DNA of 40,882 bases from Bacteroidia bacterium (lineage in GTDB: Bacteria > Bacteroidota > Bacteroidia > Bacteroidales > VadinHA17), in NCBI GenBank assembly GCA_026391595.1, contig JAPLDY010000175.1:75604-116485 (forward strand), in the 5' to 3' direction. The translations under genes and the position numbers were made by a program. The notes below the pieces were generated by a model. The model was given only the letters and a program-made list of their open reading frames with translations. It was not told the DNA's origin and did not search any database. Position 1 is the first letter of the stretch; each line of letters opens with the position of its first letter. Of the stretch, positions 11,591-31,189 are shown in pieces.

Positions 11591-12334
11591 ATGGAAACAA
11601 TTAATGATTTCAAAAACGATCGTCGTGAAAAACGCCACGAGCATCTGACAAATAACAGGGTAGTTATCGGAGTCATACTCGTACTTGCAGGTCTAGCCCT
11701 TGTGATAAAGAACACGGGATTTTTTACTGATTTCATGAATCATGTAATATTCAGCTGGCCCATGCTTCTTATAGTTATAGGACTTATAATGACACTCGGT
11801 GCTTCCGAGAAAACCGGAGGAGTAATTGTAATGGCCGTGGGAGGATTCTTCATGATACCGTTGCTTTTCCGGGAGACATTCCACATGTACAACATGTTCT
11901 GGCCGTCAATCTTTATAATCATAGGAATTATATTTATAGTCACAAAGCGAAAGGGCTGGAATGCACTGACTTCAAAGGGCATTGCCGGTGATGAGTTTAT
12001 CGATTATGTGAATGTCTTCAGCGGAGGCGAACGTCAGATCGTGTCACAGAACTTTAAGGGAGGTAAGATCTCATCTGTCTTCGGAGGCATCGACCTGGAC
12101 CTTACAAAGGCAAAGCTTTCTCCGGGCAGGAATGTTCTGGAAATAGCATGCGTATTCGGAGGGGCAACCATAATTGTCCCTGACACCTGGTATGTCACAA
12201 TTGAGGTAACGCCGGTTCTTGGTGGCTTCAGCGATTCACGCAAATTATCACCGGGAAGGACCGTCGATCCTGAAAGCCAGCTTGTTATCAAAGGAGCTGT
12301 GGTATTCGGCGGAGGCGAGGTTAAAAGCTATTAA
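11591..12334 (+). CDS. LiaF-like envelope-stress membrane protein
   Basis: 247 residues. The N-terminal half has four hydrophobic segments (about 22-39, 49-64, 70-85 and 95-115). The C-terminal half (from ~145) is a beta-rich domain with repeated VFGG turns: SSVFGGIDLDL, CVFGGATIIVP, PVLGGFSD and VVFGGGEVKSY, the hallmark of the LiaF C-terminal domain (PF09922). In Firmicutes LiaF holds back the LiaS kinase; here a LytS-type kinase and LytTR regulator follow 11 and 22 bases further on. A sensor-modulator role for that pair is inferred. Confidence 0.8.
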   Translation: METINDFKNDRREKRHEHLTNNRVVIGVILVLAGLALVIKNTGFFTDFMNHVIFSWPMLLIVIGLIMTLGASEKTGGVIVMAVGGFFMIPLLFRETFHMYNMFWPSIFIIIGIIFIVTKRKGWNALTSKGIAGDEFIDYVNVFSGGERQIVSQNFKGGKISSVFGGIDLDLTKAKLSPGRNVLEIACVFGGATIIVPDTWYVTIEVTPVLGGFSDSRKLSPGRTVDPESQLVIKGAVVFGGGEVKSY

Positions 12335-12345
12335 TTGACCGGATA

Positions 12346-13410
12346 ATGAAAAATCCAGTACTTGAAAACAGGTCTCGTCTGATAGTCTGGGGGCTGGTCT
12401 GGCTTTTTCTTGCCTCAGGCCAGGCCCTCCTGTTTTATTTTGCCTACGGAAGCTTTGTCAATATAAGCATCCCCGACATTATTGTATCACTGATGTTATA
12501 TTCGGGACTTGCGCTATCTGTCTGGTATCCTTTCAGCTATTTTAATAAAAGCGAATTAAAGGTTTTTTCACTGATTACAAACCTGGTCTTGACAGGTGCG
12601 ATAACAGTAACTGCCTGGGTTCTGGTGACAAAGCTTATAATGACACTTGTCCTTCCTGCACAGAACGATTATCAGGCATATTGGGATGCTACATTCCCTT
12701 ATAGAATAGGGAGCGGCGTGTTCATTTACGGATTAACCGTACTCACTTATTTCCTCTTTGCCAGTATGACAAATCTGGCGGAAAAGAAGGCAAGGGAGGC
12801 TAAGCTTGAAAGTCTTGTCAGGGAGACAGAACTAAAGATGCTGAGGTCACAGATAAATCCCCATTTCCTGTTCAACAGTCTTAATTCGATCAGCTCTCTT
12901 ACCGTAACTGACCCGGAGAAAGCAAGAACAATGGTGATAAAACTTTCCGATTTCATGAGATATGCCCTCTCCCGCAAGGATGAACAGCCTGTATCGCTCA
13001 GAAGCGAACTTGAGAACCTGCGCTTATACCTCGACATTGAAAAAGTTAGATTCGGGGAGCGTCTTGTGACGGAAGAAAACATTGATCCTGCCTGTCTTGA
13101 GGTGATGGTCCCGGGAATGCTTATTCAGCCCCTTTATGAAAATGCCGTCAAGCATGGTGTTTATGAAAGCACCGAAAAAGTTAAAATAAGCACAACTTCT
13201 TCTTTAGAGGAGGGCTATCTTAAAATTATAATAAGCAATAATTTTGACCCCGCGGGTAGCAAGGCAAAAGGTACCGGCACCGGCTTGCTGAACGTCTCGC
13301 GGAGGCTGGAGCTTACCTATGGAAACAGAGCATCAATAAGCACTGTCAAAAAAGAAGACCTTTTCACAGTAACCCTTTTTATCCCTTCGGATAATCCAAA
13401 AATGTCGTAA
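12346..13410 (+). CDS. LytS-type sensor histidine kinase (PF06580)
   Basis: 354 residues. Four membrane helices (about 14-34, 45-65, 75-102 and 122-142) are followed by a coiled linker and the His-kinase domain typical of the LytS/YehU group. The phospho-acceptor is His173 in RSQINPHFLFNSLN. The N box PLYENAVKHGV and the G box GTGTGLLNVSRRL are intact, so an active kinase is expected. No extracellular domain is present; sensing must occur in or near the membrane, possibly through the LiaF-like partners encoded just upstream. The response regulator follows directly. Confidence 0.92.
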   Translation: MKNPVLENRSRLIVWGLVWLFLASGQALLFYFAYGSFVNISIPDIIVSLMLYSGLALSVWYPFSYFNKSELKVFSLITNLVLTGAITVTAWVLVTKLIMTLVLPAQNDYQAYWDATFPYRIGSGVFIYGLTVLTYFLFASMTNLAEKKAREAKLESLVRETELKMLRSQINPHFLFNSLNSISSLTVTDPEKARTMVIKLSDFMRYALSRKDEQPVSLRSELENLRLYLDIEKVRFGERLVTEENIDPACLEVMVPGMLIQPLYENAVKHGVYESTEKVKISTTSSLEEGYLKIIISNNFDPAGSKAKGTGTGLLNVSRRLELTYGNRASISTVKKEDLFTVTLFIPSDNPKMS

Positions 13411-13432
13411 TTTTAAAGAGAAATTGCCTGGG

Positions 13433-14188
13433 ATGAAAAAAATAAGTACTGTAATTATCGAAGACGAAACTCCTGCCAGGGAGATACTTAAGCATTACCT
13501 TAAGGATTTTCCTGAAGTTGAGATCGTTGCAGAATGTGCGGATGGCTTCTCCGGACTGAAAGCGATATCAACATTAAAACCCGAACTGGTGTTCCTTGAC
13601 ATCCAGATGCCACGACTTACCGGTTTTGAGTTGATTGAAGTGATGACTGAGAAGCCTGTGATTATTTTCACTACGGCTTATGATCAGTTTGCTATTAAGG
13701 CATTTGAGATGAATGCCATTGATTATCTTCTGAAACCATTTCCGAAGGAGCGCCTCAGAAGCGCTGTCAATAAAGCCGTCGAAAAGATAGGCAGAACCAA
13801 AAATGAAGCCCCGGTTCTGCCCCAGGATCTCATTGAAAAGCTTCCGGAACCTTCATCTCCGCTGAATCGTGTTGTCGTAAGGAAAGGAAATGCAATAAAT
13901 CTTATACCGGTTGATCAGATTAAATATGTAGAAGCGCAGGATGATTATGTAATGATCTATCATTCTGCAGGCAAAGCCCTTAAACAGCAATCCATGAAAT
14001 TCTATGAAGAGAACCTCCGCCAGACCGACTTTGTAAGGATCCACAGGGCATATATTGTTAAAGTGACGGAGATTAATCGGATCGAGCCCTATGGTAAAGA
14101 TAACCATGTGGCAGTCCTGAAATCAGGTGAAAAACTGCCTGTCTCCCGTTCAGGTTACAAACATTTGAAAGAGGAACTTAATTTTTAA
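13433..14188 (+). CDS. LytTR-family response regulator
   Basis: 251 residues from the ATG at 13433; an in-frame TTG at 13424 is less likely. The receiver domain (1-120) has the acidic pair Glu10-Asp11, phospho-acceptor Asp56 in VFLDIQMPRLTGFE, and the conserved Lys in YLLKPF. The C-terminal LytTR DNA-binding domain (about 145-245) shows IKYVEAQDDYVMIY, FVRIHRAYIV and LPVSRSGYKHL. Such regulators bind paired direct repeats. It is the last gene of the LiaF-like/LytST unit. Confidence 0.93.
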   Translation: MKKISTVIIEDETPAREILKHYLKDFPEVEIVAECADGFSGLKAISTLKPELVFLDIQMPRLTGFELIEVMTEKPVIIFTTAYDQFAIKAFEMNAIDYLLKPFPKERLRSAVNKAVEKIGRTKNEAPVLPQDLIEKLPEPSSPLNRVVVRKGNAINLIPVDQIKYVEAQDDYVMIYHSAGKALKQQSMKFYEENLRQTDFVRIHRAYIVKVTEINRIEPYGKDNHVAVLKSGEKLPVSRSGYKHLKEELNF

Positions 14189-14562: not shown

Positions 14563-15300
14563 CTATCTCCCTTCGACCTCAAGCCACCTGGTATATTTTC
14601 GCATCGACCTGACAATAAACCATATTATTGCAGCCCCGATCAGCATCCACATCCAGATCTTCGTCATACTGATCCTTTCTGAAAGGAAGAAATTTCTTGT
14701 CAGATCAAGGACCGCGAATACCACGAATACATTAAAAAAGCTGTTATATTCTCTTTTAAGCACGTTCCTTAGAGAAAATGAAAGATTCGTCGGGATGAAT
14801 TTTACATGGAAAGGGAAAAAGGCTTTTACCTTTTCAGAATATTTGTCATAGGCTTCGCCAAATTTTCTTCTGAGGAACTGTTCTTCAGCAAACATTATTC
14901 TCTCATAGTAAAGCCAGTACACCAGGCAAAAGACAACAATAAACCATACTGATCTGATGAATAGTGCCGGGCCGAGCCACATCAGAAAATTTCCCACATA
15001 GAGTGGGTGCCTGATGATCGAATAGATACCTGTAACATTTAGTTCATCTGCAATTTGTCCGCCTGCAGTATTGCGTCCGGAAGTGTTTTTCGGAGTAAAG
15101 CCTACAGTAAGTGTCCGAATGAGCTCCCCAAGCAAGCTGACACCAAGAAAGATAATCTCATTCCTCAGGTCAAATATTATAGCCTGCCTGTTGCCCAGAT
15201 ACATCATCAGCAATCCTCCAAATATAAAAAACAGCGGCAGCCAGCCTCTTCTTTTGAAGAGCCAGTTGCCGCTGTTCTCAAATTCATGTACAAGCGCCAT
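14563..15300 (-). CDS. Isoprenylcysteine-methyltransferase-like membrane protein
   Basis: 245 residues. Several membrane helices (about 18-37, 47-63, 108-141, 190-203 and 215-233) are visible. The conserved ICMT/PEMT core is seen: GIYSIIRHPLYVGNFLMWLG (SAM and lipid site) and YYERIMFAEEQFLRRKFGEAYDKY (the E-E-x-x-L-x-x-x-F-G-x-x-Y pattern). Such enzymes methylate lipid-like or isoprenoid substrates in the membrane; the substrate here is unknown. Its own -7 box lies at 15319-15326. It sits between the export cassette and yidD on the same strand. Confidence 0.8.
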   Translation of the reverse strand: MALVHEFENSGNWLFKRRGWLPLFFIFGGLLMMYLGNRQAIIFDLRNEIIFLGVSLLGELIRTLTVGFTPKNTSGRNTAGGQIADELNVTGIYSIIRHPLYVGNFLMWLGPALFIRSVWFIVVFCLVYWLYYERIMFAEEQFLRRKFGEAYDKYSEKVKAFFPFHVKFIPTNLSFSLRNVLKREYNSFFNVFVVFAVLDLTRNFFLSERISMTKIWMWMLIGAAIIWFIVRSMRKYTRWLEVEGR

Positions 15301-15334: not shown

Positions 15335-16489
15335 CTAGAAACTAAATTTTATCCTCAGATAACATAGATTTAGTTGTGTTTTAATCCCGCTCATTTTGCC
15401 GTCGAAGCGCTGCCAGATTACCGAGAAATCGAGATTTTCTGCAAGAGAGTAATCGACAGAGGGTCCGGCAAAATAACCTTTAAGATCCGGAAACCACATT
15501 GCTGAAACACCAAGGTTGAGCAATGGGGTTGCCGCCCAGGAGAACTGGCCAAAAGCGGTAAACTCCGAAAATGCCAGGTCCTTTGCTGAAAGGTTGCCGG
15601 AATAGAGACTTGTAAAATTGCCCGGTTTTAAAGGTTTGTTGCAGTACATCAGCTGGATCTGTGCTATTGAATTATCTTTAAAAATCTTGTCGAATCCTGC
15701 GGTAATTATTGTCGTTCCTGAAGTTTTGCTGAATAACTCAAGAGAGTGAAACCATGATCCCTCGCCCCTGAAAGAGACAGATCCTATTGATCCTGACCAT
15801 CCTGCTCCTGCTACAATATCGGAGCTGTTCGCATATCCGGCAAGGAATTGAATGTCATAACCCCATTTGTTAAACCTGCCCAGTCCGGCAACAGTTACGT
15901 CGTTGTCGCTGTTCATCTTGGCAGCCAGTTCAATTGCTGATGATGAAGCAGGATAATATTGAAGCCTTATTGCATCACTACCCGGCCTTTCAACATAATC
16001 GACATCAAAAAATGAATATGCGTTGAAGATGTCATTGGGATTCCACACGAAGGTCTGGCCCCAGTTTATCCGCTGCCTTCCTACCCTTGCCTGGAACTTG
16101 TTAAAATTGAGATCGAGCCATAATCTGTCAACAGTAGTGTTCAGGAAGAAAGAATTTTCATTTACTATATTCCACGACATATCTACCAGTCCCGGATCCA
16201 TACCAGTCATTTCCGAATATGCTCTTCCCATAGTCTTGACCATGTCGCCCGTGAAAAGCCGATTCCTTACTTCTGCGGCAAATGTAATTTTATTACCAAT
16301 ATAAGCCTTGAAATTGAGCCTGTTATGAAGCAGGTTCTCAAAAAGGATCGTGTTAGAAAGAGTGTCAAACATGGCACTCTCCATGGTTGTAAGGTAGCCG
16401 TTTAATTCAAATTTTTTCTGCTTCTCCTGCGAAAAAACCGAACAGGTAAAGAGTGAAATAAAAAGAACTAATGTAAACAGCTGTTTCAT
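15335..16489 (-). CDS. Outer-membrane beta-barrel protein of the export cassette (DUF1302/porin-like)
   Basis: 384 residues. A signal peptide (MKQLFTLVLFISLFTCSVFS, cleavage before Q21) is followed by a long run of amphipathic strands, ending KFSF with the terminal Phe used for barrel assembly. The segment ARVGRQRINWGQTFVWNPNDIF (near residues 134-155) resembles the GRQ...WG pattern of DUF1302-type barrels that partner LolA-like carriers; family membership is tentative. It is the last gene of the TetR-controlled unit, 16 bases after the LolD-like ATPase gene, and is the likely outer-membrane end of that pathway. Confidence 0.7.
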   Translation of the reverse strand: MKQLFTLVLFISLFTCSVFSQEKQKKFELNGYLTTMESAMFDTLSNTILFENLLHNRLNFKAYIGNKITFAAEVRNRLFTGDMVKTMGRAYSEMTGMDPGLVDMSWNIVNENSFFLNTTVDRLWLDLNFNKFQARVGRQRINWGQTFVWNPNDIFNAYSFFDVDYVERPGSDAIRLQYYPASSSAIELAAKMNSDNDVTVAGLGRFNKWGYDIQFLAGYANSSDIVAGAGWSGSIGSVSFRGEGSWFHSLELFSKTSGTTIITAGFDKIFKDNSIAQIQLMYCNKPLKPGNFTSLYSGNLSAKDLAFSEFTAFGQFSWAATPLLNLGVSAMWFPDLKGYFAGPSVDYSLAENLDFSVIWQRFDGKMSGIKTQLNLCYLRIKFSF

Positions 16490-16505: not shown

Positions 16506-17192
16506 CTATTTCCTGACATCATCAGAAACAATCTTACCGTCTTCCAGAGTTATAACCCTATGTGCCCTTTTCATGACTCTTACATCATGAGTTGAAAAAA
16601 TAAATGTCATCCCCTCTTCATGATTCAGTTTTTCCATTATATCGAGAAGCGACTCTGCAGATTTTGAATCGAGGTTGGCTGTAGGTTCATCAGCAAGAAT
16701 GAATTCCGGGTGTGTCGCCAGGGCGCGGGCAACAGCTATTCTTTGCTGCTGGCCTCCTGACAATTGTGAAGGCCGGCTTTTATGCCTGTCAGCCAACCCG
16801 ACTGATGTGAGGAGTTCGTTTGTCCTTGTCATACGCTTTTCTTTCGGCCATTTCTGAAGGTTCATAATGAATCCGACATTTTCGGCTGCAGTCAGCACCG
16901 GGATCAGATTATACGACTGGAAAACAAATCCCACATGATCCATCCTGAAGTCAATGAGCTCCGAAGGTTTGAGTTCTGACAGACGGTGGCCCGCTATCAG
17001 GATTTCTCCCCCGGTGGGTTGATCCAGGCCTCCTACAAGGTTAAGTAAAGTTGTTTTACCGGATCCAGAGGGACCTACTATAACCGCAAAGTCACCTTTC
17101 TCAAAACTTAGCGTCACTCCGTTAATTGCCTTCACTTCGACTTCCGTATCATGATAGGACTTAAAAACGTTATTGATTTCGACTACTGCCAT
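16506..17192 (-). CDS. LolD/MacB-type ABC transporter ATPase
   Basis: 228 residues. It has Walker [10 protein letters not shown] (near 40-48), the signature [15 protein letters not shown] (near 143-157), Walker [13 protein letters not shown] and the switch His in [13 protein letters not shown]. It belongs to the LolD/MacB/FtsE group that powers mechanotransmission permeases and does not itself carry substrate through the membrane. It lies 21 bases downstream of two FtsX-type permease genes, which are its likely partners. Confidence 0.93.
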
Positions 17193-17213: not shown

Positions 17214-18641
17214 TTATTCGCCTCTTAATGCTTCTACCGGATTGAGCTTTAATGCTTTGCGTGCCGGGTAAATTGCCGATACTATTCCGGTAAGTACGAT
17301 AAGAATAGTCGTTGTAATAAAGAATTGCACGTCAATGGTGGGAAACAAGTGTGCTGAATAGCCCATTGCCTCCATACCCTCTGAATATTTCATCAGGTTT
17401 ATGCCTGTTTTACCAGTGATCGATATCGCTGCTTCACTTACAGCCATTCCTGCAAAACCGCCTACAATTGACAGGAAAATTGACTCCAGCATTATCATAA
17501 TGAATATTTTTCTGCGGTTCATCCCTATCGCCATCAGCATTCCCAGTTCCCTGGTCCTTTCAAGAACTGCCATAAGCATGGTATTTACAATTCCGAATGC
17601 CAGGGCTGCGAGTATCAGTACCATAAAGACAGCGTAGATCTGATTAATGAAATCTGTAATCATAGCAAGGTCGGGCTGAATTTCCTTCCAGTTAAGCACC
17701 TCATAATCTGGCAATTTTTCTCTTATTTTGGGTGTCATACTATTTGTAATGTCATTATTTTCAAGCCTGGCAATTACCCTGTGAAAAGAACCTTCCTCCA
17801 TCCCCGTAAGCTGCCTCAGCTCATCAATGGGAACAAACAGTGAGAGTGATTCAAACATATCATTATTGGTTCTGAAAATACCGCATACCCTGAATGCCGC
17901 ACCGGTCTGATTGTTGTTAATATCAAGAAACGAAAGTATGATCTTCGATCCTTCCCTGTAAGACCAGGCTGCTTCCCTGATCTTCCATCCATATTTCTGT
18001 ATCTCACCGGGGGCCAGTAATTTTTCGTATGCTTTTACAAATTTTTTATCTGAAGTAAATCTTTGGCCCTGAAGCACTTCAATTTTGGAAACAATTTCTG
18101 GAGGAATACCTTTTTCTTTCAGTGATGTCAATGCTTCCGGAGTTAAAATATACCGGATTATGTTCAATTCTTTTGCCAGTTTTTCGCCAATAAATACCGT
18201 ATTGAATTTTGTATTTGTTTCAAAGAAACTGCCTGTTCCGGGAATAAGCTTTTTGGACAATGTAAACATCTCCTTTTCCTTCCCGACATCAATACCCGTT
18301 ATCTCAACTCCTGAGCTTTTCGTAGCAGTTGTGGCAATTCCCCTGACTATTATCCTTCCGGTAACTTTTGTTACACCGGGCGTGGATTCCAGGGCAGAGA
18401 CAACTCCCGGATAATCTCTTATGATATTCTGTATATCGGCGCTGCTCCGGAACTCCTTATTGTTCACCTGAATATGGGCAAGTTCTTCATTAACCGCAGC
18501 ATCGATTCTCTGCACAACTGAGCTGTTTATTGCGGCCATTGAAAATATTCCGGCAAAAACGCCTATCGTTACCGCAGCGATAACTATCAGGCTTCTCGTT
18601 TTATTTCTCCAGACGTTTTTCCAGGCTATAGCTGTAATCAT
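17214..18641 (-). CDS. FtsX/LolE-type ABC permease 1
   Basis: 475 residues. An N-terminal membrane helix after AWKNVWRNKTRSLIVIAAVTIGVFAGIF is followed by a large periplasmic domain (about 45-345), then three C-terminal helices with the conserved MLMAVLERTRELGMLMAIGMNRRKIF coupling segment, as in LolC/LolE/MacB. The last residues are LKLNPVEALRGE, a typical ending of these permeases. It is paired with the next gene (9-base gap); the two are probably the two halves of a heterodimer. Confidence 0.9.
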   Translation of the reverse strand: MITAIAWKNVWRNKTRSLIVIAAVTIGVFAGIFSMAAINSSVVQRIDAAVNEELAHIQVNNKEFRSSADIQNIIRDYPGVVSALESTPGVTKVTGRIIVRGIATTATKSSGVEITGIDVGKEKEMFTLSKKLIPGTGSFFETNTKFNTVFIGEKLAKELNIIRYILTPEALTSLKEKGIPPEIVSKIEVLQGQRFTSDKKFVKAYEKLLAPGEIQKYGWKIREAAWSYREGSKIILSFLDINNNQTGAAFRVCGIFRTNNDMFESLSLFVPIDELRQLTGMEEGSFHRVIARLENNDITNSMTPKIREKLPDYEVLNWKEIQPDLAMITDFINQIYAVFMVLILAALAFGIVNTMLMAVLERTRELGMLMAIGMNRRKIFIMIMLESIFLSIVGGFAGMAVSEAAISITGKTGINLMKYSEGMEAMGYSAHLFPTIDVQFFITTTILIVLTGIVSAIYPARKALKLNPVEALRGE

Positions 18642-18650
18642 GTTTTGTTT

Positions 18651-20066
18651 TTAAGCTCGCATTGCGTTTATAACATTCATCCTGAAAATCTTGCGAGAAC
18701 TGAATATAATTGCAATCACAAGAATTATCAGCACAACCACGATCTGCCACAGGTAAAAAGTGTCTGGCAGCATTGTTGGCATCACCGGTTCAAATCCATA
18801 ATCTTCATACATACGGGCAAATTCACCAGTAAACCTCAACGGATGAAAATGTCCGTAAAAAACAATGGGCAGTGATCCGGCCACCCCGGCTGCAACACCC
18901 AATAAACCGATAAAGAGCATTTCAAGGGATACAACTTTCGCCAGTTTTGTCTTCTGCATTCCGATTGATACCAGCATTCCGAACTCCCTTCTCCTTTCAG
19001 CCATCATCATCAACACTGTTCCGAAGACTCCGAAGGCGATTACCATATAGAGCACACCGATCATTATCATTCCGCTTCTGTTATCGGCTTCCATCTGATT
19101 TACCATCAGCGCATTAAGCTCCTGCCATGTCTTTATTGTCATTGGATCTGATACCATATTTTTCAAGCGGTTCCCTGTCTGCAATATATCGTCATCATCG
19201 TTGCTTTTAAGACTAATAACCGCAGAGGTGGCCATCGCAGGAGCGGCATAAAGTTCCCTGGCAGATTCTATTGGCAGATAGACAATGATGTTGTCAATAT
19301 CCGGTGCTGACAGTTTAACTATTCCCTTGACCTTATACCTCCCTGCTGCTGTTGTTCCATGATAACCCTGACCCATAAGAACGATAGTATCGCCTACATT
19401 AGCTTTAAGGTATTCTGAAAGACCGTCACCGATAACTACATCATTTGTTTCTTTTCCCGTCAGAAAAGCATTGTTGAAAGAAGCATATCTCCGGATCAAA
19501 GGAAGAATTTCTGCACTATCTGAGTCGCTGATGCCGAAATCAATCATAAGCCGGGTTTCACCTGAATAGGCTTCCCCCTTGAAAAGATCCAGGAGTTTTT
19601 TTGTGTGGTCCGATACCTGTTCGTTCTTTATTTTTTCAATGGCATCTGGAGTAATCTTATATTTGACCAGCTTATTCCTGATATTCATGACTTTATTTTC
19701 ACCCGGGGGGTCAATACCTAGTACTAACACTCCCTGAGTATGGCTGCCTGCAGCTGCCAGTGCAAAGGATTCAAGTCGTGTTACAATATCAGTTACATTC
19801 GGGTCTTTTCTGATCTGATCAATAAGCGCTTGATTTATTTCAAAGCTGTTGTCAAGATTGGGATCATCAAAATAATCTATATGCTGAAGCTGCAGATACC
19901 CGCTGTATGATTCAATGACGTTCTTGAAAAGCCTGTCATATGCACCAAGCTGGAAAGACCGCATGACCAGTGCAAAGAAGACTGCGAAAAAAACAGATGC
20001 AGCTGTAATCAGCGTCCTTCTTTTGTTGCGCCAGATATTTTTCCATGCTAGCTGATAATCTTTCAT
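18651..20066 (-). CDS. FtsX/LolE-type ABC permease 2
   Basis: 471 residues. The topology is the same as in permease 1: an N-terminal helix after AWKNIWRNKRRTLITAASVFFAVFF, a periplasmic domain to about 340, three C-terminal helices with MMMAERRREFGMLVSIGMQKTKLAK, and the end RMNVINAMRA. Its ATG overlaps the stop of the LolA-like gene by four bases, so translation is probably coupled. Two different permeases with one ATPase match the LolCDE layout rather than the MacB homodimer. Confidence 0.9.
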   Translation of the reverse strand: MKDYQLAWKNIWRNKRRTLITAASVFFAVFFALVMRSFQLGAYDRLFKNVIESYSGYLQLQHIDYFDDPNLDNSFEINQALIDQIRKDPNVTDIVTRLESFALAAAGSHTQGVLVLGIDPPGENKVMNIRNKLVKYKITPDAIEKIKNEQVSDHTKKLLDLFKGEAYSGETRLMIDFGISDSDSAEILPLIRRYASFNNAFLTGKETNDVVIGDGLSEYLKANVGDTIVLMGQGYHGTTAAGRYKVKGIVKLSAPDIDNIIVYLPIESARELYAAPAMATSAVISLKSNDDDDILQTGNRLKNMVSDPMTIKTWQELNALMVNQMEADNRSGMIMIGVLYMVIAFGVFGTVLMMMAERRREFGMLVSIGMQKTKLAKVVSLEMLFIGLLGVAAGVAGSLPIVFYGHFHPLRFTGEFARMYEDYGFEPVMPTMLPDTFYLWQIVVVLIILVIAIIFSSRKIFRMNVINAMRA

Positions 20067-20827
20067 CTTATCGTTTTCATATTCTGCTGAGAAAAGAAGC
20101 TTTCATCAATCTTTATATTGAATTTTATTTCAACTATCTTCAGGATGGTTTTATACCCTTCATTTTCAGCAGGAACAAGCTCAATGAGAGTCGGGATAAA
20201 CCTGCCGTCCATCATCCTGAGCTCAGAAGCTTTTTCTGATCTTACCAGATAGCCGTCTTCATCAAAAAGCTCAGCTTTCAGAGCGATGAACTCTTTCTTG
20301 TCGATCCACCACATCTGTTTTCCCCACAGAACGTCTGCATTTTCTTTTGCCACAAGTTTTATTTTCCAGCAATCATGGCCATCAACGGTTTCCGAACCTT
20401 CAATTGTATGATCATAGTCGCTTACAACCGAAGATTCTCTGAGAATATCATCGTTTGTATAGTCGGAGCCCATCCATCCCTGGGACATCATTGAGGGTGG
20501 CAGCTTGACAAGCCTGTTGATGGCAGGATTCCAACTCCACATTTCTGTTTTTCGCTTCAGGAAGGTCTCTCCTTTCTCCCGTGCCGGAGAGGTGATCAGA
20601 GTTAAGGCGTAATCTTCCTCTTTCGACCATGATTTGAATTCAACAGTTCTCTGCCACGAAGGCCTTACTATTGTCATTGTCATGACGCTGTAACCGCTTT
20701 GCTCTCCCTTGAATTTTTCGTCAGTTTTTCTGACAATTTCGGTTGCGCTGATCTCCTGGGCAAGAAGTAAATTTAAGTAGCTCCCCTGATACAGAAGAAA
20801 AATTAAGATTGTTACAACTATCTTCAT
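20063..20827 (-). CDS. LolA-like periplasmic carrier (outer-membrane lipoprotein-sorting family)
   Basis: 254 residues from the ATG at 20827; the longer frame begins with TTG at 20851 inside tetR. The signal peptide is MKIVVTILIFLLYQGSYLNLLLA(Q). The mature protein has the pattern of the LolA_like family (PF17131): RPSWQRTVEFKSWSKEEDYALTLITSPAREKGETFLKR, then MWSWNPAINRLVKLPPSMM and GWMGSDYTNDDI. Known relatives are encoded beside RND/MMPL exporters and outer-membrane barrels; here the exporter is an FtsX-type ABC. It should shuttle a lipid or lipoprotein across the periplasm. The start is 7 bases after the tetR stop. Confidence 0.85.
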   Translation of the reverse strand: MKIVVTILIFLLYQGSYLNLLLAQEISATEIVRKTDEKFKGEQSGYSVMTMTIVRPSWQRTVEFKSWSKEEDYALTLITSPAREKGETFLKRKTEMWSWNPAINRLVKLPPSMMSQGWMGSDYTNDDILRESSVVSDYDHTIEGSETVDGHDCWKIKLVAKENADVLWGKQMWWIDKKEFIALKAELFDEDGYLVRSEKASELRMMDGRFIPTLIELVPAENEGYKTILKIVEIKFNIKIDESFFSQQNMKTIR

Positions 20828-20834
20828 AAAAAGC

Positions 20835-21473
20835 TTATTTAAATAACTCAATTATCCTGTTTAGGGCTTTTTCATTCTTATCAATATTATAGTCAGAGTA
20901 GATGCTGGTTAAAGCAAAACCCTCAATGGTGATGAAAAACATATCTGTCTCTGTGTCAGTATCATATTGATCCCCCGTTTTCGCTTTTTTCCTTATAAAA
21001 TAATCTTTGATCATTTTCATTATCTGCGACGGGTAATTTGTGTCCCCTGGTTCATGCCCGGGGTGAATCAAAGAATCGGATTCGGGAAAAGCTTTAAGAA
21101 ACTGCTCCCTGACATCATTTTGTAAAAGAAGCTGAAATAACAAACGCCAGAATGATTTTTTGCCTTGCAGCATTGTATTTATTTTCCTGATGAAAAATTC
21201 AAATTCTTCATCTGAAAGATATCCATCCTTGTCAATGTCGAGGTAATGGTACACTTCATTCACCGACCTGTGAACAATTGCTTTCAGCAGAGCTTCCTTA
21301 CTATCAAAATAATTGTATAACAAACCCTTTGAGATCCCTGCATGACGTGCAATATGACTTATGGTCGTTCTGAAGTAACCTTCGTTGGCAAAATGTTCGA
21401 GTGCAACGTCCATAATAAGTGTCATTTTCTCTTCCCTGATTTCCCTGAATTGCTGTGGAGTTCTTGGTGACAT
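20835..21473 (-). CDS. TetR-family regulator with an EF-hand-like loop
   Basis: 212 residues from the ATG at 21473; a longer TTG frame would start at 21500, inside the promoter. The N-terminal helix-turn-helix is typical: TTISHIARHAGISKGLLYNYFDSKEALLKAI (residues 36-66). In the ligand domain, residues 79-90 read DIDKDGYLSDEE. Asp at 1, 3 and 5, Gly at 6, Leu at 8 and Glu at 12 is the canonical EF-hand calcium loop, flanked by helix-like segments. It leads the LolA-ABC-barrel unit and has a palindromic operator over its own promoter, so autorepression is likely. Calcium sensing is inferred. Confidence 0.92.
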   Translation of the reverse strand: MSPRTPQQFREIREEKMTLIMDVALEHFANEGYFRTTISHIARHAGISKGLLYNYFDSKEALLKAIVHRSVNEVYHYLDIDKDGYLSDEEFEFFIRKINTMLQGKKSFWRLLFQLLLQNDVREQFLKAFPESDSLIHPGHEPGDTNYPSQIMKMIKDYFIRKKAKTGDQYDTDTETDMFFITIEGFALTSIYSDYNIDKNEKALNRIIELFK

Positions 21474-21484
21474 GTTTTTTTTGA

Positions 21485-21500
21485 TTGAACGTTCGGTCAA
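21485..21500. promoter_or_regulatory. Probable TetR operator
   Basis: The minus strand reads TTGACCGAACGTTCAA, an inverted repeat with 12 of 16 positions symmetric and a perfect GAACGTTC core. TTGACCG-type half sites are common for TetR regulators. It touches the -7 box (21498-21505) and covers the expected transcript start, so a bound repressor would block initiation of its own operon. Confidence 0.65.
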
Positions 21501-21528
21501 AGTTAAAACAGAGTTTTTAAAAAGTCAA
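21498..21528 (-). promoter_or_regulatory. Promoter of the tetR-LolA-ABC-barrel operon
   Basis: On the minus strand TTG (21526-21528), 20 bases, then TAACTTTG (21498-21505), an exact TAnnTTTG box with near-ideal spacing. It places the transcript start near 21490 and supports the ATG at 21473 as the tetR start. Confidence 0.65.
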
Positions 21529-22813: not shown

Positions 22814-24226
22814 ATGGCAAGTCTCAGGCTTCTACTTGGATTGATCCCCTCTACTGCTAAAATTGAGCAGGCAGAAAAGGCCCTGATTACCGAATTTGAA
22901 AAGCTTAATGCCTTTTCAGGATCCGAAACCCTGAAAAAATTCACGGAGCTTAAAGAGCTGGTGACCTCTTCCTCCTTCCTTTCAAAAAAGAAAGAAATAG
23001 AGTCATTCAGCTTCAAAGCATCTGACGAATATGCAAAGGAAAAAGAGTTCCTTTCCCTTCAGAAAGCAAAGGATATCGTCCTCTATTACAGAACAGTAGC
23101 AGGATCAACCCTTAAGAAATTCAAGGAGCTTGATGGCTCTGAAAAGATATCAGGCTATGAATCCCTTCAAAAGCTGGTATCATCGATGGAGTTCCGCGAA
23201 AAAATGAAAACAAAGGAATTCAAAGGCTCTGATGATGATAAGAAACTCCAGGAATTCAACCGTCTGAAGGCAAACCCGGAAATCCAGGATTATTTTAAAT
23301 TTAAAAAATCAAAGGAGTATGCCAATTTCCTGAATATCGACGGATCTTCAAAGCTCACGCGTTTTAATGAGCTGAAGGATTATGTTGCAACCACTGAATT
23401 CAAGGATAAGAAAGCTTATCTTCTCGATAAGAAGAGATTCGAGAAAACCGATATGTTCAAAAGTCTCGAAGAGTACAATAGAATGAGCAAGAACGAGGAT
23501 ATCCTTTGGTATTTCAAAGTTAAGGATTCCAACAAATTTGATGCTCTGAAAACAAGAGAACTAACTTTCAGCGATGAGTTCGAAGGCGATAAGCTCGACA
23601 CAAAAACCTGGCTTACCAACTATTTCTGGGGCGACAAACTCCTTAAGGACAATTATACCGTTGGCAAAGATCTCCAGGCGTATACTGAAAAAGAAAACTT
23701 TGAGGTTCGAAACAGCCTCCTGAAGATCATCACCAAGCCGCAGAAGAAGGAAGGTAAAGTTTGGAGCCCTGACGGTTTCATGACAAAAGAATTCGCCTAT
23801 ACTTCCGGGATCGTAAACACCGGAAAAAGTTTCAGACAGAAATATGGTACTTTCAGCGCAAAGATCAAGCTTGGAAATCCTGCTGCAAAATCTGCATTCT
23901 GGATGCTTTCGGATAAGATCACACCTCATATTAACGTATGCCGGACTGCAAACGGAAAGGTTATCTCTGATTTTTTTGCAACCCCCGAAAAGAGGGCAAA
24001 AGGCTCGATAGGCGGTAAATACGCGAACGATTTCTATATCTTCACTCTTGAATGGACAGCTGATAAGCTCGTCTGGAAAATAAACGACACCGAAGTCCTT
24101 ACCCAGACAAACGATGTACCCAAAGAACCAATGTATATACTCCTCTCCGGCGGTCTTGACAAGCCCGTCAACAGCATGACAACCATGGAGATAGACTGGA
24201 TACGGGTATATCAATCGAAGAAGTGA
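22814..24226 (+). CDS. GH16-fold protein with three N-terminal repeats, catalytic residues missing
   Basis: 470 residues. Residues 40-248 hold three repeats of about 70 residues (near 40-108, 112-179 and 180-248), each with LxxFxELKxxV, SxEF, DxxKxLxEFxxLK and YFKxKxSxxF elements. Residues 250-467 match the GH16 beta-sandwich: LTFSDEFEGDKLDTKTW at the start, YTSGIVNTGKSFRQKYGTFSAKIK, FWML, and MEIDWIRVYQ at the end. Where active enzymes have E-x-D-x-x-E, this has HINVCR (372-377). No clear signal peptide is present. A carbohydrate-binding or structural role is more likely than hydrolysis; true function unknown. Confidence 0.8.
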   Translation: MASLRLLLGLIPSTAKIEQAEKALITEFEKLNAFSGSETLKKFTELKELVTSSSFLSKKKEIESFSFKASDEYAKEKEFLSLQKAKDIVLYYRTVAGSTLKKFKELDGSEKISGYESLQKLVSSMEFREKMKTKEFKGSDDDKKLQEFNRLKANPEIQDYFKFKKSKEYANFLNIDGSSKLTRFNELKDYVATTEFKDKKAYLLDKKRFEKTDMFKSLEEYNRMSKNEDILWYFKVKDSNKFDALKTRELTFSDEFEGDKLDTKTWLTNYFWGDKLLKDNYTVGKDLQAYTEKENFEVRNSLLKIITKPQKKEGKVWSPDGFMTKEFAYTSGIVNTGKSFRQKYGTFSAKIKLGNPAAKSAFWMLSDKITPHINVCRTANGKVISDFFATPEKRAKGSIGGKYANDFYIFTLEWTADKLVWKINDTEVLTQTNDVPKEPMYILLSGGLDKPVNSMTTMEIDWIRVYQSKK

Positions 24227-28570: not shown

Positions 28571-31189
28571 ATGAGAGCTTTTTACACAATACTGAAAATA
28601 TTAGCCATTCTTGTTATTATTGTCACTGCTACATTGTTTTTTGGCTCATTTGTGATGCAGGATACAGTAGCCGCTATTATTCTCAGATCACTGAATAAGG
28701 ATATATCCACAAAATACGAATTTGAATCTGTCAGGCTCTCGTACCTGAAAAAATTCCCCAATGCCTCGCTCGACCTGAAAAATGTTCTTGTACACTCATC
28801 TCCGGGATTCGACAAAACTGACTTTGAAGGTATTAATACCGACACTCTCCTGTTTGCAGAATCCGTATCAGTTGAATTCAAAATTACCGATGTTGTCAAA
28901 GGAATTTACGACATAAACAGGATCGGTGTCAGGGACGGACGGATGAATTTGTTTACTGACCTGGCAGGAGCTGTTAACTATGACATAGCTGTTGAAAATG
29001 AGGAGTATACAACATCCGGTGATTTTCTGCTCAATCTCGAAAAAATCAATGTCTCAGGAGTAAAGGCGACTTATAATAATCTGGCTACTCAATTGCTGAT
29101 AAGGGGTTTTATTGATAACGGCCGGATAAAAAGCAGGATATCCGGTGATAATATCGATTTTGCAGCAGAAGGAGGATTGAGAATTGACCTTTTCAGCCTT
29201 TATGATTTCAGTTTATCAAATAGCATCCCTGCAAATATTGACATTAACCTTTTCCGTTCCGGGAAGGGCTACTTATTTAATAAAAGCAACCTGATGCTGG
29301 ATAATTATTTATTTGGACTTTCAGGTTTTATTTCTTCTGATAATGTTCTTGACCTGATAATTACCGGGGAGAATATTGATGTCTCCGGTGTAAAGAATTA
29401 TCTGCCTGAAAAGATCCGTGAAAGGATAGCCGGATACAATCCCTCCGGAGTCATGAACATCAAGGGGAAGATAGCGGGACCTGTTACCACTACAACAAAT
29501 CCGGGGATGCAAATTGACTTTAGTGTCAGGAATGGGAATGTCACTTACGGAGCATCTGCCCTTAACATAAAAGATCTTTCCTTCAGCGGAATGTTTACTA
29601 ACGGTTCCTCGATGGTCCCTGCAACCAGTTCACTGGCAATCAGCAGCGTCAGGGGAACCCTCGGGTCTTCGCAATTTACAGGATCATTGTTGCTTTCCGA
29701 TTTTGATACACTTTACGGGAAGCTTGACCTTAAAGGCAAAGTTATACCGTCGGAAATCAGGGAGTTTTTCAATCTTAAAGATGTGTCTGTTGCTTCGGGG
29801 AGCATTGATCTTGATCTTAAGATGGAAGGTCTCATTCCCGATAAAGAGAAATATTCAGTATCCGATTTTTTCAGCCTCAACCCCGATGCTGACCTTAAAT
29901 TCAATTCATTTAACCTTGGGATCGGGAATGAAAAAGTGCTTGTGAAAGATGTAACCGGACGCCTCATGATTTCTGATACCGTTCATGCCAGCAATCTGAA
30001 GCTCTCCTATAAAGATCAGACTTTTCTGATAAACGGTATTTTCATTAACCTTCCCGGATGGCTTGCAGGGGATCCTGTAGTGCTGAACGGCACAGCTGAG
30101 ATATCATGTGGAAAGCTCATGCCTGAAAAACTGTTCCCTGTATCAGCAGACACCATTTCGGGAAACGAGACTGCATTTCGTTTCCCGTGTGATATAATCA
30201 TGGACCTGAATTTAAAAATCGATCACTTTATTTATAAAACTTTCGAAGCCAATAATATTACGGGCAGGATCAGTTATAAGCCTAGGATCCTTAATTTTAA
30301 AACACTGAAACTATATTCATTGGATGGAATCATCTCTGGCGATGGTTTTGTCGTACAGAATACTGACAAGGCATTCATCAGCAGGGGTAGCTTTGTCTTT
30401 GAAAAAATAGATGTCAAAAAGGCATTTGAATCATTCAAAAATTTCGCACAGACTTTTCTTGTGTCAGAAAATCTTAAAGGAACCCTTACCGGCTCCCTGT
30501 CGCTTCTTCTTCCGATGGATTCCCTTTTTAATCCTGTATATAAATCTATTACCGCAGAAGGAAAGTTTGGCCTTACTGATGGAGCATTGATAAATTTTGG
30601 CCCTGTAAAAGAGCTTTCTTCATTCATTGAATTGTCTGAACTTGAGAACATTAACTTTGATAAGCTTGAAAATGATTTTTTTATAAGAAACAATTTTCTT
30701 TATCTTCCGCAAATGGACGTAAGATCGTCTGCTGCTGATCTTTCAATTAACGGAAAGCACAGTCTCGACAATGAATATGAATATCACGTTAAAATATTGC
30801 TTTCGGAGGCGCTGAGCAGGAAAATCCATAAGCCAAAATCTAATACTACTGAATTCGGAGCAGTTCAGGATGATGGCCTTGGCAGGACATCGCTTCTCTT
30901 GAAGATCGAGGGCAACGGAGAAGATGTTAAAGTCGGCTATGACGTAAAAGCTGCTGGAACCAAGGTTAAAAGCGAGATAAAATCTGAGAGACAAAACCTT
31001 AAAACCATTCTGAATCAGGAATATGGCTGGTATAAGAATGACTCCACGGTGACCAAAACCACAACTCCGGCTTCGAAAAAATTCAGGATAACATGGGATG
31101 AGGCTGATTCATCGAAGGTGCAGCCGGAACTACCTATGGAACAAAAGGAGCCGGGAATAAGGAATATATTCAGGAAGAAAAATGAATAA
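28571..31189 (+). CDS. AsmA-family protein
   Basis: 872 residues. An N-terminal membrane anchor (about 7-30, ILKILAILVIIVTATLFFGSFVM) is followed by a very long beta-rich periplasmic part. The AsmA pattern is visible at the start (SLNKDISTKYEFESVRLSYLKKFPNASLDLKNVLVHS) and in the C-terminal AsmA_2-like region around 620-760 (TLTGSLSLLLPMDSL, FGLTDGALINFGPVKELSSF, NGKHSLDNEYEYHVKILLSEAL). AsmA/TamB-type proteins are thought to form lipid bridges between inner and outer membranes. The C-terminal ~80 residues are charged. The last 8 bases overlap the next gene. Confidence 0.88.
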   Translation: MRAFYTILKILAILVIIVTATLFFGSFVMQDTVAAIILRSLNKDISTKYEFESVRLSYLKKFPNASLDLKNVLVHSSPGFDKTDFEGINTDTLLFAESVSVEFKITDVVKGIYDINRIGVRDGRMNLFTDLAGAVNYDIAVENEEYTTSGDFLLNLEKINVSGVKATYNNLATQLLIRGFIDNGRIKSRISGDNIDFAAEGGLRIDLFSLYDFSLSNSIPANIDINLFRSGKGYLFNKSNLMLDNYLFGLSGFISSDNVLDLIITGENIDVSGVKNYLPEKIRERIAGYNPSGVMNIKGKIAGPVTTTTNPGMQIDFSVRNGNVTYGASALNIKDLSFSGMFTNGSSMVPATSSLAISSVRGTLGSSQFTGSLLLSDFDTLYGKLDLKGKVIPSEIREFFNLKDVSVASGSIDLDLKMEGLIPDKEKYSVSDFFSLNPDADLKFNSFNLGIGNEKVLVKDVTGRLMISDTVHASNLKLSYKDQTFLINGIFINLPGWLAGDPVVLNGTAEISCGKLMPEKLFPVSADTISGNETAFRFPCDIIMDLNLKIDHFIYKTFEANNITGRISYKPRILNFKTLKLYSLDGIISGDGFVVQNTDKAFISRGSFVFEKIDVKKAFESFKNFAQTFLVSENLKGTLTGSLSLLLPMDSLFNPVYKSITAEGKFGLTDGALINFGPVKELSSFIELSELENINFDKLENDFFIRNNFLYLPQMDVRSSAADLSINGKHSLDNEYEYHVKILLSEALSRKIHKPKSNTTEFGAVQDDGLGRTSLLLKIEGNGEDVKVGYDVKAAGTKVKSEIKSERQNLKTILNQEYGWYKNDSTVTKTTTPASKKFRITWDEADSSKVQPELPMEQKEPGIRNIFRKKNE

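Follow-up and report, generated by a model that had tools for sequence, protein, structure and literature searches.

The 40,882-nucleotide stretch of Bacteroidales DNA analyzed here (“the window”; contig JAPLDY010000175.1, lineage VadinHA17) encodes a TetR-family regulator in whose hinge an EF-hand motif is embedded, and this motif is real and conserved. The regulator gene, recognized by Pfam and by translation, occupies positions 20835..21473 of the minus strand and runs from an ATG at 21473 to a stop at 20835, giving a protein of 212 residues; the list of open reading frames starts it at a TTG (21500) that sits within an operator-like palindrome, and the ATG is therefore probably the true start. 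The 12-residue loop, DIDKDGYLSDEE, comprises residues 79-90 (21204..21239, minus strand) and rests on translation, conservation and an AlphaFold2 model. As the initial annotation of this DNA had read it, the loop presents ligands at positions 1, 3, 5, and 12, a glycine at position 6 and a hydrophobic residue at position 8, and it is flanked by the segments EVYHYL and FEFFIRKI. We give a probability of roughly one half to the reading that this hairpin, the alpha4-alpha5 turn of an autoregulated TetR protein, became, in the window's order of Bacteroidota, a genuine EF-hand site and that Ca2+ thereby serves as an input to the adjoining LolA-like/ABC (ATP-binding cassette) operon.

The regulator has the all-helical TetR fold with its ligand domain, and a Pfam scan assigns residues 20-66 to the TetR_N helix-turn-helix (PF00440, E 1.5e-16). 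The same scan places EF-hand_1 over residues 72-97 (E 7e-4, 19.4 bits); neither this score nor that of the isolated segment (21.8 bits) reaches the curated cut-off of 25.4, so that annotation based on the cut-off would not report an EF-hand. One EF stretch is found in the single regulator chain scanned, and 28 of the 47 family members scanned, a set enriched in loop-bearing rows, match EF-hand_1 at E <= 0.1, the best of them with E 1.8e-6.

In the AlphaFold2 model of the whole protein, with secondary structure assigned by DSSP, loop positions 1-9 lie between helices 59-78 and 88-104, which we take to be TetR alpha4 and alpha5; the exit helix begins at loop position 10 in the whole-protein and fragment models alike. 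The helix-loop-helix, which spans 21162..21299 (minus strand), is supported by both models and by PDB matches, and its loop is predicted at the helix-helix junction, as the initial annotation had supposed, and not buried in a helix. A structure search with the whole model returned the acyl-CoA-binding FadR and the multidrug-binding TtgR and MtrR as the closest folds; no EF-hand protein was among the matches listed, all of which were TetR structures. A profile search of the PDB with the segment led to EF-hand proteins of the calmodulin, EhCaBP1, and NCS-1 type.

For the wider family, 110 loci (given here by L numbers) yielded 109 homologues; once identical rows had been discarded, the alignment comprised 102 distinct sequences, window included. 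A strict loop was defined as D1, D/N3, D5, G6, [ILVM]8, and E12, by which 45 sequences carry a strict loop, 11 a partial one and 46 none. The set is biased, as the best 80 of 310 loci were kept and one of the six peptides used as seeds (DEEFEFFI) comes from the motif, and invariance within the strict class is a consequence of the class definition; two controls are free of these biases, namely a whole-protein search within the genus and a search by the neighboring LolA-like gene, which is blind to the loop. A PROSITE-type EF-hand pattern, in what we take to be its standard form, matched 45 of the 102 family sequences, always at the alpha4-alpha5 junction and nowhere else in the same proteins. 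It occurred in 3 of 2040 composition-shuffled proteins and in none of the 624 other long open reading frames of loci L031-L110; on these counts, together with the conservation of the ligand sites within the genus, a chance motif was rejected.

The same-genus search gave 18 orthologues (the window, L003-L018, and L029), whose ligand domains (residues 67-212) have a mean pairwise identity of 44% outside the loop. Only twelve of the 146 ligand-domain positions are invariant among them; residues 79, 83, 86, and 90, which are EF positions 1, 5, 8, and 12, account for four of the twelve, and residue 91, the hydrophobic Phe that comes next, for a fifth. Gly84 is present in 17 of the 18, position 81 is exclusively Asp or Asn, and the loop is intact in 17, that of L018 being broken by a five-residue insertion. 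Conservation of the acidic positions among orthologues, the check that the initial annotation had proposed, is thus borne out within the genus and fails among many wider relatives, which are without the motif.

The regulator gene heads a co-directional run of genes on the minus strand, which encode a LolA-like outer-membrane lipoprotein-sorting protein (PF17131, E 1e-53; 20063..20851), two FtsX/LolCE-like ABC permeases (18651..20066 and 17214..18641) and a LolD-like ABC ATPase (16506..17192), the last three assigned by Pfam and gene order. The envelope export cassette that had been placed next to the regulator is therefore present directly downstream as a LolA-like/ABC operon, with its own operator-like site. 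Among the best 80 of 310 loci, 66 have a co-directional lolA-like gene downstream of tetR, whether or not the lineage carries the EF-hand; of the 14 exceptions, L051 ends just after tetR.

The operator-like site is a 22-bp imperfect palindrome, TTTGACCGAACGTTCAATCAAA (21480..21501, minus strand), which lies 7 to 28 nt upstream of the ATG, is conserved upstream of homologues and has a single match within the window. The initial annotation had given a site for gel shifts at 21485-21500; the site before tetR stands, and its extent is corrected to the 22 bp given here. The consensus TTTGACYGAMCGTTCAGTCAAA, drawn from the same sequence set that was scored, was found with up to four mismatches within 250 bases before tetR in 45/45 EF, 9/11 partial, and 35/46 EF-less rows, and in 0/306 mononucleotide shuffles. 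An exact match to the 18-bp core occurs once in the genome, and every other match within two mismatches differs at two positions. As is characteristic of the TetR family, there is thus a palindrome, a putative operator, at the gene's own promoter; this site and the conserved gene order suggest that the regulator is most likely a local autorepressor of the envelope transport operon.

The distribution of the loop weighs in part against Ca2+ as the input to this operon. All 80 LolA places in the Bacteroidales, the window's order, were examined (window included), and at 45 of them a TetR of the same type lies within 1 kb upstream of the LolA-like gene; 5 of the 35 places without one have under 700 bases upstream on the contig. 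Among these 45 lolA-linked TetRs the strict motif, here extended to accept Phe at position 8, is present in 22 and missing in 23; the PROSITE-type pattern is found in 25, and several of the non-matching proteins are near-misses, such as DPNKDNFLTDEE. Elsewhere in the phylum, where 39 of 45 non-window LolA places were examined, none of 12 lolA-linked TetRs has the motif, a count that stands apart from six further places with a TetR of the same type in another arrangement. Nor was it found in any of 29 TetR loci checked (of 38 non-window places), including loci of the same six genomes, by a pattern window that can overlook proteins with long N-terminal extensions, as with L160. The initial annotation had named orthologues without the acidic positions as evidence against its proposal, and such orthologues exist in part of the order and in all 12 lolA-linked cases outside it. 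EF-less homologues, moreover, often keep both operon and operator, neither of which depends on the EF-hand. We therefore reject the loop as a universal feature of the orthologue group; on these sequences, it is a lineage feature and no requirement of the regulator.

Among genomes with a stated kinship to the window, the strict loop was found in none outside the window's order. Three loop-bearing records are titled Chlorobiota (L046, L053, and L060); the loop segment of L060 is identical to that of L160, from the window's own family, and these titles may consequently be unreliable. Close copies on plasmids were rejected, all 95 plasmid records matched being less than 60% identical. The homologue at 5998-6597 of L057, a record titled Parabacteroides sp. 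PM6-13, has the loop and an operator-like site, and the next gene is of the AraC type; no lolA-like gene is found in this 12.5-kb stretch, and the sole LolA-like match in that genome (E <= 1e-5, 30% identical) lies outside it.

Substitutions within an alpha4-alpha5 hairpin that was already there appear to have created the loop, or to have eroded it, since the length of the segment is nearly the same with and without it: residues 59-109, as aligned, amount to 51 residues in 45/45 EF rows and to 48-55 in EF-less rows, 39 of 46 of which have 50-52. An inserted EF-hand domain was rejected on this ground. On a quick tree from which residues 68-104 were left out, the EF label required 14 changes, compared with a shuffled mean of 33.5 (0 of 500 shuffles as low). 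The label is thus clustered on this tree, a pattern compatible both with one gain and repeated loss and with several gains; a single clean gain is not supported. Seven rows (L025, L052, L058, L061, L065, L067, and L069) have a modified loop with N or D at position 1, D5, and E12, and in six of the seven Asp replaces Gly at position 6; these are perhaps weakened or retuned metal sites, and metal binding may be weaker in partial loops such as NPDHDDEITTQE or DPNHDDNITTEE. The partial loop of L067 reads NPDHDDEITSQE, and L085 is an EF-less, operon-linked relative.

If Ca2+ is indeed the input, one ion would be held by Asp79, Asp/Asn81, Asp83, a backbone carbonyl and a bidentate Glu90. In TetR, alpha4 relays ligand binding to the DNA-binding heads; the entering helix of the hand is this coupling rod, so that Ca2+ binding would set the alpha4-alpha5 angle, and the angle in turn would determine how far apart the two heads sit on the 22-bp operator. 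Ca2+, acting alone or together with a ligand in the pocket (a lipid or acyl-CoA, possibly), would then control the LolA-like/ABC operon in response to a signal such as the entry of Ca2+ when the envelope is damaged. We infer the binding of Ca2+ and its affinity, as well as autorepression, the signal and the direction of the switch, which may be release from the operator or tighter binding. A more far-reaching version, which we put forward tentatively and consider possible if rather doubtful, makes the protein a one-component Ca2+-sensing repressor: its EF-hand would have come from point substitutions, and cytoplasmic Ca2+ would move the heads and switch an operon for lipid or lipoprotein transport from the inner to the outer membrane. 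The sister lineages, in which the loop is weakened or missing while operator and operon are retained, would in that case represent graded sensitivities to Ca2+.

The main rival to a calcium switch is a structural ion, with Ca2+ (or Mg2+) bound constitutively and only stiffening the alpha4-alpha5 hairpin, while a molecule in the ligand pocket, for instance a lipid, acyl-CoA or drug, acts as the inducer. The closest folds bind just such ligands, single EF-hands are often structural, and the loop can go while operator and operon stay; against this reading, the loop sits in the model where the coupling helix ends, and its absence from many orthologues argues against a strict need in folding. That absence in sister lineages is compatible with a sensor as well as with a structural ion, and tells against an essential folding role. 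We would not favor the structural ion, and still regard it as a possibility to be taken seriously.

Less is to be said for a site without any metal, in which an acidic glycine turn and a helix N-cap (T/S-x-x-E) resemble an EF-hand by accident. The capping-box pattern [ST]xx[ED] occurs in 22/46 EF-less homologues and in 41/45 EF rows, so positions 9-12 may partly serve capping; the triad D/N-x-D/N-x-D/N, however, occurs in 0/46 EF-less homologues (a grouping that itself used those positions), the spaced conservation of positions 1, 3, 5, 8, and 12 with freer positions 2, 4, 7, and 10 is the pattern of a metal ligand, and length is fixed in the EF rows, which together make the accident improbable. 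A preference for another cation, for example a lanthanide, is brought to mind by lanmodulin, whose loops have Pro at position 2 as a hallmark and Asp at position 9. Pro2 is found in 20/45 strict loops and in 25/36 EF or partial loops outside the genus group, and lanmodulin 6mi5 is among the PDB matches of the segment profile (E 2.4e-10); the window protein, however, has Ile at position 2, and position 9 is Thr or Ser, not Asp, in 40/45 strict loops, and we consider such a preference very improbable.

How cytosolic Ca2+ comes to control gene expression in bacteria is an old question, and we know of few transcription factors that bind Ca2+ directly. If Ca2+ is the input, a TetR protein whose coupling helix bears an EF-hand would link Ca2+ to transcription in a single protein, and a compact calcium-switched repressor could serve as a tool; it would also be a case of an EF-hand arising inside an unrelated fold, and relatives of the EF-positive, partial and EF-less kinds, which have operator and operon in common, are available for comparison. 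The initial annotation had held EF-hands to be unreported for TetR ligand domains, and we recognized no such report in the open-access literature searched, a search with most subscription papers outside its reach; in one paper pairing the words EF-hand and TetR, the latter is a resistance mark. To our knowledge no EF-hand is known in the TetR-family proteins FadR, TtgR, and MtrR, in contrast to which the alpha4-alpha5 turn of the window protein is an EF-hand loop. Its pattern of D1, D/N3, D5, G6, hydrophobic 8, and E12 in 12 residues between helices is that of calmodulin, EhCaBP1, and NCS-1; unlike in these, a single hand is found, in a DNA-binding repressor and apparently derived by substitution in the hairpin. 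SczA is a TetR-family protein that, unlike the window protein, uses a transition metal and other ligands, and it is not known to us to have an EF-hand. A zinc role for SczA is named in the title of a work cited in PMC8879271. Both would be one-component TetR-type regulators with a metal input, the input being a proposal in the case of the window protein. EfhP of Pseudomonas aeruginosa is an EF-hand Ca2+ sensor controlling Ca2+-dependent transcription, which PMC11559002 describes as sensing Ca2+ and not as a repressor that binds DNA; here, in contrast, sensor and repressor would be one protein.

Beyond the ATPase gene, a 384-residue protein (15335..16489, minus strand) without a match in Pfam (1e-4) or NCBIfam (1e-5) has the sequence of a possible outer-membrane beta-barrel, and it possibly completes a trans-envelope transport system. 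Of 139 loci, many of them too short to reach this far, 40 contain a relative of it, in most cases following the ATPase gene. After the operon lies a gene for a phospholipid-methyltransferase-like membrane protein (14563-15300, minus strand), also seen in L031, L032, L034, and L043. On the plus strand, a LiaF-like membrane protein, a His_kinase and a LytTR response regulator are encoded in a row at 11591-14188, a possible three-gene envelope-stress system near the operon. Farther away on the same strand, an 872-residue open reading frame without a Pfam match at 1e-4 (28571-31189) precedes one whose product has a histidine-kinase-type ATPase domain, and a GH16-like protein (22814-24226) matches GH16 over residues 309-463, its N-terminal half seeming, by eye, to consist of repeated helical units.
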